Assembly (NCBI GenBank): GCA_949285325.1
Contig: CASDYZ010000051.1
Coordinates: forward strand, 1-34,566
Direction of reading: 5' to 3'
Source of the DNA: an uncultured bacterium
Lineage (GTDB): Bacteria; Bacillota_I; Bacilli_A; RFN20; CAG-826
Length of the DNA: 34,566 nt
The notes under the pieces: generated by a model
Databases searched by the model: none
What the model was told of the DNA's origin: nothing
Seen by the model: the letters and a program-made list of their open reading frames with translations, nothing else
Made by a program: the position numbers and the translations under genes
Shown here: one piece after another, positions 14,608 to 19,544 of the stretch
Layout of the letters: each line of letters opens with the position of its first letter
Position numbering within the stretch: the stretch's first letter is position 1

Positions 14608-17247
14608 ATGAGAAGATTATGGGCATATATAATATTAGCCTTTACCGCGATAGTTTGTATGGGGGTTAGTTTCACAAATATATTCGTGCAAACTGATTCA
14701 AATATCGAATATCAAGATGGACGTGAAATCGTCTTTAGAATTAGCGATGAAGATAGCGGAGATGAAGAGCTTCCTGAAGGTGCAGTTAATGAAATCGCTT
14801 CAGTCATGGAAGAAAGACTCAATAACTCTGACATCAGCCGTTATGAAATTCAAATTGCTGGAGATGACACCATCAAAGTCATATTCTCCGAACAAGATAC
14901 CGCTCAATATGAGAATATTGTTTACTATCTTTCCTTCAACGGACAATTTGCTTTATCGACCTCGACTGATATCGTCGCTTTAGGCGATGAATTTAAGACT
15001 GACGAAAAAGCGTATTTAGATACAATTAACAATTATCCATGCGTCGTCATCCCTATCGACACTTCAAATGAAGAATTTAACGCTGTCATAGAAGAAGGGA
15101 ATAAATTAAGAGACGATGGAGTCGGTGAAGAAGTTTCAACTGGTGAAACTGATGAAGAAGGTAATCCAGTCAACGAAACTATCACTTATTTATATCTATG
15201 GTGTGATTATGAAGAAGGAGATACTTATTCTCAAACTCAAAGCGCCAATGAAGATTACGACCCAGAAGTAGCAGAAAAAGTCATCATGAAATTCAATGTC
15301 AATGACGGTATTTGGTTTCCAGATGGTGATGAAAATAAATTAGGTTCTGCGATAAATGTCGATACCAACGGCGATGGTGTGGCAAGCGTCAACGAAGTTG
15401 AAAATGCTTACCAAACAGCGAGATTTTATATCAATTTATTAAATTCTGAAGCTTTAAATTACGATATTACTTACCTTTACGATAAATCTGTTCCAGCCTG
15501 GACAGAAAATTTAATCGACTATGGGGCAAAAGCAACACTCGCTTGGTCTAATACCCTTCTAGCGACAGCGGTGGCGACCATCGTCTTATGCTTAGTGTTC
15601 ATCGTCTTTTATCGACTTGGGGCCATATCGACTATTGTTATGACTCTTGGCTCAATTTTTGGGGCAATCGGGTTTGTCGTCTTATTTGGTGTACAAATTA
15701 ATTTAGCGACCATCGTCGGTTTAGTTGCCCTCTCATTAGTATCGATGGTTTCTTCAATCATCTATTTTACAAAATTGAAAGAAGAAGCATATCGTGGTAG
15801 AAGTTTAAAGAAAGCGAATACTGAAGCGAGCAAAAAATCGTTGTTACCAATTGTCGATGTCAATGTCGTATTGATAGTAATAGGTGCGATTGCCTACGCT
15901 TTAGGTGGCTCAATCATGGTAGGTTTCTCCGCTGTTTGTGTACTTGGAGGACTTGTCTCTATCATCTTAAATACCTTAGGTTTAAAAGGTATGATGTGGT
16001 TAGCGACCAACACGACAGCACTCACTGGTAAATATCAATGCTTTGGTATCGATCCTAAATTAGTGCCAGATTTAACTAAAGAAGACAAACAAACATATTA
16101 TGGTCCTTATCAAGATAAAGATTTAACTAAACATAAGAAGTTTGTCGGTATTTTTGCTTCAATTTTATTTGTCGCCTCTCTAGCGGGCATGATTACTTTT
16201 GGAGTTTTAAATAACGGAGATATTTATCAAGCCCCATCAAATGTTGTAAATTCACAAATTTATTTTGAAACAACGACAGAAAATTCTGCACTCAACTCGA
16301 CTTCCATTAGAGAATTGTTAGATGACGTTTATTTACCTATGGTCGTCGACGAATCTCAAGAAACTTCTCCTCAAGTCGATGATTCTCTTTTAGAATATGT
16401 CCTCGATATAGAAGATTTTGAAAGAACTGATACAGTCGAAGGAGTGGAAGTTAATTACTATTATTACGTCGTCACTCTCGACTCATCAATCACCTCAAGT
16501 ACAATTTGCTTTTATGGGGAAGGAGAAGCAGAAGAAATCAATTTGACCCTTGAAAATGCTTTAAATAGTCAAGCGATGGACGCGAATGCGACCGTGTCAC
16601 TTAAAGATGTGACGATTGTCTACGAAGAACAACCAGCGTGGGAGCCAATCGTTTTATCAACTTTTGTCAGTGTCCTTATCATCAGTTTCTATTTGATGCT
16701 TAGATATGGTTTATCTAGAGGCTTAAGTGCATTGCTATTAAGCGTACTTAATAGCGCGGTGGCTATGGGATTCTTCTCTCTTACTAGATTAGTTACTTCA
16801 ACTTATGTAACTATCGCTTTACCGCTAATCGCCACCATAAGTTTCGTATTCATGATTATGTTTATGAATAAAGAAAAAGAATTGGTAAATGAAGATCGTA
16901 AAGCTAATAATTCGCTCGATTCAAGAAAAGAAATTATGCTTAAAGCTACTTCCCTTTCTTTTTCACTTATCTTAAGCGCTTTGTGTGTCGGATTATTACT
17001 TACTTTGTGCTTCTTTGGATTTGGCCCTGTATCAACTTCTTACACTTACTTAATGGTGTTAGTGGGAATATTGTTCGGCGCCTTATTCATCACTGTCTTA
17101 ATTGGACCTATGAGTCACTTATTCTATTCGTGGTTCTCAAAAGTTCACATCAACGTTAAGCCACCTAAGAAGACAAAGAAGAAAAAACAATATAAAGCAA
17201 AATCTGCTGAGCCAGAAGAAGCTATCTTTATCGGCATTAACGATTAA
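14608..17247 (+). CDS. secDF: SecDF protein-export protein (fused SecD-SecF)
   Basis: SecDF is a proton-driven RND-type membrane protein that pulls on substrates leaving the SecYEG channel. This 879-residue protein joins SecD and SecF halves, as in Bacillus. The SecD half has TM1 (about 4-25), a large acidic outer domain (about 27-300) and five helices (about 308-470). The SecF half has a TM at about 512-532, an outer domain (about 540-675) and five helices (about 678-845). The tail is lysine-rich. The sequence is divergent, so assignment rests on architecture, the duplicated 6-TM pattern and gene position. Residues 252-263 form a canonical EF-hand loop, unusual for SecD. SD is TTGGAGG. Confidence 0.88.
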   Translation: MRRLWAYIILAFTAIVCMGVSFTNIFVQTDSNIEYQDGREIVFRISDEDSGDEELPEGAVNEIASVMEERLNNSDISRYEIQIAGDDTIKVIFSEQDTAQYENIVYYLSFNGQFALSTSTDIVALGDEFKTDEKAYLDTINNYPCVVIPIDTSNEEFNAVIEEGNKLRDDGVGEEVSTGETDEEGNPVNETITYLYLWCDYEEGDTYSQTQSANEDYDPEVAEKVIMKFNVNDGIWFPDGDENKLGSAINVDTNGDGVASVNEVENAYQTARFYINLLNSEALNYDITYLYDKSVPAWTENLIDYGAKATLAWSNTLLATAVATIVLCLVFIVFYRLGAISTIVMTLGSIFGAIGFVVLFGVQINLATIVGLVALSLVSMVSSIIYFTKLKEEAYRGRSLKKANTEASKKSLLPIVDVNVVLIVIGAIAYALGGSIMVGFSAVCVLGGLVSIILNTLGLKGMMWLATNTTALTGKYQCFGIDPKLVPDLTKEDKQTYYGPYQDKDLTKHKKFVGIFASILFVASLAGMITFGVLNNGDIYQAPSNVVNSQIYFETTTENSALNSTSIRELLDDVYLPMVVDESQETSPQVDDSLLEYVLDIEDFERTDTVEGVEVNYYYYVVTLDSSITSSTICFYGEGEAEEINLTLENALNSQAMDANATVSLKDVTIVYEEQPAWEPIVLSTFVSVLIISFYLMLRYGLSRGLSALLLSVLNSAVAMGFFSLTRLVTSTYVTIALPLIATISFVFMIMFMNKEKELVNEDRKANNSLDSRKEIMLKATSLSFSLILSALCVGLLLTLCFFGFGPVSTSYTYLMVLVGILFGALFITVLIGPMSHLFYSWFSKVHINVKPPKKTKKKKQYKAKSAEPEEAIFIGIND

Positions 17248-18884: not shown

Positions 18885-19544
18885 ATGAAAAAATATGTAT
18901 TATTATTTATACCGCTTTGTGGACTTAGCTTAACTTCTTGTGTTCAATTTATCGATGAAGAACATTCTCTAGGCTTAAGTGGGGGAGATTCTCAAATAGA
19001 AAACGACTACATAAATCCTACTTTTGTCGATAATCCTACTCTACCTAGTGAACTTAGTTTATCGTTTACTATCTCATTTAAAAAGAGTAATTCAGAAAGT
19101 GGCTACATCTCAACTTATGATGAATTTTTAAATATATTAGCATCTAATAACGACACATCTCATATCAATTCCATCGATGTCGATAATATGCGTTATGTAT
19201 CACAAGGCTATCAAGGTTTAAAACTCGGATTAAACATCGGTGATAATTATGGCTTTATATCTTTAAACACTAATTCTACTTTTAAAGCGGTGAGTATTAA
19301 GGCTTATCCTCGCTTTGTAGAAACTTTTGACTATCAAAGTGGTGTCCTCGAATTAGATATCGATAAAGAGAGCGCTTTAAGCGCTGATAAGAATAATTTT
19401 ATTAAAGTCAACGGCGATTTTATAACCGCTGATGAGGTTAAATCAAGTACGATTAATTTCATCTTTGACGAAGATAAAAGCACTTTAGATCTATACTCCT
19501 ATGGTGGGCGTATAGTCATCGATTCCATCTCATTTTATAACTAA
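18885..19544 (+). CDS. Predicted lipoprotein of unknown function
   Basis: The N-terminus is a clear lipoprotein signal: two lysines, a hydrophobic stretch (VLLFIPLCGLSL) and a lipobox LTSC ending at Cys19, which would be lipidated after export. The remaining 200 residues are polar, rich in Asp, Ser and Asn and predicted mostly beta. They contain no enzymatic motif I recognise; a beta-sandwich binding or surface protein is one possibility. An SD (CGAGG) precedes the ATG. It occupies the recJ-rel interval where Bacillus has apt, so it is a lineage-specific replacement. A terminator-like hairpin follows at 19577. Confidence 0.82.
   Translation: MKKYVLLFIPLCGLSLTSCVQFIDEEHSLGLSGGDSQIENDYINPTFVDNPTLPSELSLSFTISFKKSNSESGYISTYDEFLNILASNNDTSHINSIDVDNMRYVSQGYQGLKLGLNIGDNYGFISLNTNSTFKAVSIKAYPRFVETFDYQSGVLELDIDKESALSADKNNFIKVNGDFITADEVKSSTINFIFDEDKSTLDLYSYGGRIVIDSISFYN

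Follow-up and report, generated by a model that had tools for sequence, protein, structure and literature searches.

A lineage-restricted EF-hand-type loop in the P1 base of SecDF, a probable structural calcium site

Introduction

Does an EF-hand-type loop in the extracytoplasmic part of a SecDF protein bind calcium, and what would the ion do there? The question is raised by a locus in the window, the whole 34,566-nucleotide stretch of DNA from an uncultured bacterium that was analysed here. A sequence-only reading had proposed that calcium may stabilise or regulate the export motor through this loop. Our analysis points to a Dx[DN]xDG-type loop that probably acts as a structural Ca2+ clip in the base of the SecD P1 domain, having originated once by insertion and been kept in most of one clade.

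Results

A SecDF protein with an exact EF-hand-type loop

The gene lies in the order obg-ruvA-ruvB-secDF-recJ-(unknown)-relA-hisS-aspS. Homology to SecD and SecF was found by Pfam SecD_SecF_C (E 3.8e-9, above cut-off), by alignment with SecD chains of solved structure in the PDB (top match E 1e-17) and by NCBIfam SecDF_plasm, whose E of 2.9e-48 corresponds to 164.6 bits, below its cut-off of 500. A scan of viral contigs found no relatives, and one of genome contigs found a single relative (L169). Between recJ and relA (18885-19544) lies a 219-amino-acid open reading frame with a lipoprotein-like start and no Pfam match. The features needed here are as follows.

14608-17247, plus strand: secDF, fused SecD-SecF of 879 amino acids (open reading frame; SecDF_plasm below cut-off; SecD_SecF_C)
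14692-15531, plus strand: P1 extracytoplasmic region, approximately residues 29-308 (hydropathy; alignment to solved SecD chains)
15340-15360, plus strand: LGSAINV, hydrophobic segment preceding the loop, a presumed strand (alignment; matches the strand ending [IV]xG in canonical SecD)
15361-15396, plus strand: EF-hand-type loop DTNGDGVASVNE (translation; ligand conservation; ligand-restricted selection)
15361-15363, 15367-15369, 15373-15375 and 15394-15396, plus strand: putative side-chain ligands D252, N254, D256 and E263
15385-15387, plus strand: S260, loop position 9
15388-15444, plus strand: helix after the loop, residues 261-279 (AF2 fragment helix; conserved helix of canonical SecD)

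Translation of 15361-15396 gives DTNGDGVASVNE at residues 252-263 and confirms the exact 12-residue loop that had been read from the sequence, with Asp, Asn, Asp, Gly, Ser and Glu at positions 1, 3, 5, 6, 9 and 12. The loop thus carries side-chain ligands at positions 1, 3, 5 and 12 and an oxygen at position 9, with V258 expected as the backbone ligand, and it also has the form Dx[DN]xDG followed by a later acidic ligand (DTNGDG and E263). Across the 24 open reading frames of the window (10,237 amino acids) there is a single match to D.[DN].DG.{5}[DE], the one in SecDF, against a shuffle mean of 0.06 over all 24 frames and 0.003 for SecDF. The six-residue core is commoner, with four occurrences in the window, one of them in the DHH-domain region of RecJ, and 30 genome-wide matches to its DNA pattern compared with 4 for the reversed control. 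When 20 such loci were read, the core proved to be in frame in 19, within ordinary proteins (RecJ, for example), and just 3 carried an acidic residue at position 12. Since the core is also found in unrelated proteins, seldom with that acid, it is weak evidence by itself. In one relative (L078), a second EF-like loop, DSNDNGVLDTNE, was observed at residue 569 in the SecF ectodomain; the same pattern detected none in its genus mate L009.

The loop aligns with a strand-to-helix turn, probably at the base of P1

P1 is flanked by hydrophobic segments at residues 2-28 and 309-351, as judged by hydropathy, and the N-terminus carries an Arg-Arg pair. This arrangement places P1 outside the cell and supports the extracytoplasmic location originally proposed for the loop. 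To position the loop, profiles of canonical and order SecD sequences were aligned with solved SecD chains, which matched the window protein weakly over residues 55-146 and clearly from 303 onwards. The loop site aligns to V228-I229-E230-G231-L232-S233-S234 of Thermus thermophilus SecDF (3aqp), ahead of E236-E237-A238 (numbered by counting along the alignment), and by this alignment it corresponds to a turn in the solved protein, the strand-to-helix turn G231-S234. We take this turn to belong to the P1 base, where the chain has come back from the head, and topology suggests that the site is membrane-proximal. The sequence-only reading had linked the loop to the P1 head that is thought to grip substrates; because the alignment puts the site at the base, under our assignment of the domains, that link finds no support.

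Structure prediction for this region was of low confidence. AF2 run on P1 with a two-sequence alignment gave a pLDDT of 42, and a 66-residue fragment, again with two sequences, gave 55, with a helix at fragment positions 26-44 (residues 261-279; block means 60-74). Foldseek found no match in the PDB at E <= 10. The predicted helix holds E12 of the loop in its first turn and contains the nearly invariant A271. A helix beginning at loop position 10, as in the AF2 fragment, is also seen in EF-hands. A profile of loop and helix built from 45 sequences had calmodulin and other EF-hand proteins as its top PDB matches, with 426 distinct sequences at E <= 10; its best E, 2.5e-10, was summed over repeats, and no single stretch among the matches listed did better than 0.84. 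None of the 45 members reached the curated cut-off of a Pfam EF-hand model (best E 0.02, any one model matching at most 11 of 45), and the window SecDF had no such match even below threshold. The likeness to a canonical, calmodulin-type EF-hand lies in a 12-residue loop with positions 1, 3, 5, 9 and 12 filled and a helix after it, the latter predicted by AF2 at low confidence. The differences are that the SecDF loop is single and unpaired, being the only pattern match in the window protein, that its Pfam scores fall below cut-off, and that no preceding helix is expected, the segment before the loop aligning instead with what we take to be a strand of canonical SecD.

One gain and four losses within the family

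SecDF was found in 212 of 224 genomes of the family. We read 121 sequences from 120 genomes and then 20 more, 141 in all, the remainder belonging mostly to g18, g25 and g27, outside the clade described below. With a full ligand set scored as D1, [DNS]3, [DNS]5 and [DE]12, 45 of the first 121 rows were positive (45/141 overall). They came from 12 of 34 genera, and within those 12 genera 45 of 46 rows had the full set, so that all ligand positions are kept across these genera, which is what the sequence-only reading had proposed to check by aligning relatives. One genome (G137) has two full-length secDF copies, L071 and L109 on contigs C17 and C11, with the loop present in both.

A tree of the 121 family rows and 9 outgroups, calculated with the loop columns excluded, grouped all 45 loop-bearers within a single 65-row clade (SH-aLRT 100). 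Full sets were absent from the 56 first-sample rows outside this clade and from the loop site of the 20 later rows, all of them outside it. Rooted on the outgroup, the distribution requires a minimum of five changes, one gain and four losses, and a mixture-model tree of 55 rows again gave five. Loss of ligands in close homologues had been named beforehand as an observation that would count against a calcium site. No such loss was found in the nearest relatives, but the set has gone from L003, from L016, from 15 rows of g26 and from three rows of g17; a clade that has lost the loop four times can evidently dispense with it. At position 5, Asn is common in genus g23, and Asn or Ser occurs in some relatives.

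Among canonical SecD sequences of the class, the loop was found in none of the 22 loci that were readable from a sample of 30 (the other 8 were dropped); at the site these have GxF[ST]xxxA, preceded by a short stretch that looks like a strand. The earlier view that an EF-hand is not a standard part of SecD is borne out by this sample. A literature search for an EF-hand in SecD found no report, which by itself does not prove absence elsewhere.

Sister groups have a similar acidic turn (e.g. ADSEGNYD) that lacks the full ligand set. Dipeptide expansion of a sister D-x-x-G-x-Y-D turn is an attractive origin for the loop. However, g17, itself nested in the clade, has this short turn too, which leaves precursor and relic indistinguishable. 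In five g27 sequences (L042 and L200-L203) the same turn holds a longer insert that is rich in Asp and Ser and lacks the EF ligand set.

Selection acts on the ligand positions

Substitutions were counted in 16 species pairs picked by hand among loop-bearers. In the ligand codons, 170.7 sites yielded 2 replacement differences, both of them D/N swaps by the aligned loops. The remaining codons of the loop yielded 79.5 in 289.8 sites, and P1 outside the loop 1785.5 in 8920.2. Because the pairs were drawn from loop-bearers, this conservation of the ligands is biased upward. Synonymous differences per site in the three classes were 0.98, 0.62 and 0.62, respectively. Across the whole clade, losses included, positions 1, 3, 5 and 12 had middling rates (ranks 123, 113, 111 and 95 of 247 P1 columns). 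On the sequences read, two further observations are freer of the bias from choosing bearers. Position 9, which is not part of the set definition, has a side-chain oxygen in 45/45 loop-bearers, and loss comes close to all-or-none: of the 65 rows in the clade, 45 score four ligands, one scores three and 19 score two or fewer. Shuffling of columns gave a mean of 25.6 and a maximum of 35 full sets against the 45 observed, in a comparison that ignores kinship. A chance motif was also considered and was ruled out by shuffle rarity, ligand conservation, the tree and selection on ligand codons.

In one rival reading no metal is bound, and an acidic, Gly-containing turn with a helix N-cap merely resembles an EF-hand loop. 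The weak AF2 and Pfam support would fit such a turn, as would the like acidic turn and incomplete ligand set of the sister groups. To cap the helix, however, its first residue would suffice, whereas here selection falls on positions 1, 3, 5 and 12 while 2, 4, 6, 7, 10 and 11 vary, and the ligands of the clade are held or lost nearly as a set. We therefore regard a metal-free turn as unlikely.

Rival roles for a bound ion

If an ion is bound, the most likely role of the loop, judged from sequence comparison, would be that of a constitutive calcium staple. The sequence-only reading had suggested that calcium may stabilise or regulate SecDF, and the first alternative is a regulatory sensor role, with SecDF gated or tuned according to calcium outside the cell. 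Extracytoplasmic Ca2+ would normally saturate such a site, particularly a single, unpaired loop; secDF is retained in the four lineages that lost the loop, and neither a partner nor a response element was found. Regulation by calcium is thus unsupported, and a sensor seems quite unlikely, even though the preceding strand would lie in the P1 base, whose sheet rearranges between SecDF forms according to the account in PMC8669966, and an ion could bias that change.

Less likely still, and in our view very improbable, is a Ca2+-dependent docking surface for SecY, YidC or a secreted chaperone, comparable to that of a dockerin. The site is predicted to lie near the membrane, and an extracellular lone loop of calcium type with a single helix behind it resembles the layout that we take a type I dockerin F-hand to have (the F-hand is described in PMC4728124). 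Unlike a conserved interface, however, positions 10 and 11 are fast-evolving (ranks 199 and 192 of 247 P1 columns). Type I dockerins have a duplicated F-hand, whereas the window SecDF has a lone loop and no second F-hand, no known cohesin-type partner, and a loop embedded in SecD in place of a separate module.

Finally, Mg2+ or Mn2+ as the physiological ion of the same loop is extremely unlikely, given that E at position 12 (41/45 loop-bearers) favours a seven-coordinate Ca2+ site and that, although the motif holds Mn2+ in some crystals, Ca2+ is deemed the stronger candidate in such a case by PMC3123361.

The TM4 proton-relay Asp is missing from all family sequences read

The sequence-only reading had treated SecDF as an export motor. 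The proton wire of SecDF includes a TM4 Asp, D519 in Escherichia coli (PMC8669966); in T. thermophilus it is D340 by our alignment numbering, and the D365 that PMC8669966 prints for Thermus is not reconciled with this. The corresponding feature in the window is given below.

15748-15750, plus strand: V381, column of the TM4 proton-relay Asp (alignment column, mapped via the 3aqp alignment)

The Asp is replaced in 141/141 family rows by F, V, A, I, L, S, T or C. In order relatives the column holds D in 7/27 and N in 4/27, and in the canonical SecD alignment Asp is invariant (21/21 rows). The counterparts on the SecF side are seemingly lost as well, with D in 0/136 rows that have a residue and R in 0/135, although the alignment is less sure there. 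Because the loss of the TM4 Asp spans the whole family read, it predates the loop. Given its absence from every sequence read, a proton-driven motor is not assumed for SecDF here, and the designation of this protein as an export motor becomes doubtful. One could imagine a calcium-dependent, proton-independent SecDF without the known proton wire, in which Ca2+ bound to the base sheet of P1 determines or gates how the head swings, but we consider this highly improbable.

Discussion

The structural clip, which we consider the probable function of the loop, could have come about and worked as follows. A single insertion would have taken place in the P1 base, at the turn that leads from a strand of its sheet into the conserved helix. 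The resulting loop would hold one extracellular Ca2+ through the side chains of D252, N254, D256 and E263 and one backbone carbonyl, with S260 probably contributing via water. The bound ion would permanently staple strand to helix and stiffen the base that carries the swinging P1 head, acting as a clip and not as a sensor. Since SecDF forms differ in the arrangement of their base and P4 sheets (PMC8669966, in the account cited above), a clip at this point would stiffen or bias the base.

Compared with canonical SecDF (T. thermophilus 3aqp, Deinococcus radiodurans 5xan, E. coli 5mg3), the gene, the fold as judged by alignment and the P1 helix after the turn are the same. The differences are a short turn there where the clade has a loop, and the absence here of the TM4 proton-relay Asp.

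A close parallel is the Dx[DN]xDG motif of Rigden et al. 2011 (PMC3123361), which likewise has ligands at positions 1, 3 and 5, Gly at 6 and a later acid, and is inserted in unrelated folds. As set out there, the motif has originated repeatedly, mostly in extracellular settings, replacing short loops between secondary-structure elements, and slippage in Asp- and Gly-rich stretches is named as one route to it. The present case differs in the frequent Asn at position 5 of the loop in one genus and in its Ca2+ site being a predicted one, and the main Table 1 of that paper does not list the SecD P1 base as a context.

This calcium motif is known for its convergent origins, and the P1 base of SecD would be a structural context new to it. 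The family also offers a tree on which the loop was gained once and lost four times and whose sister groups have turns without the motif; well-supported, rootable trees of this sort are hard to obtain according to PMC3123361. For SecDF itself the clip makes a testable prediction: the stiffness of the P1 base would depend on Ca2+ in some species, and this dependence would be absent in their sisters.
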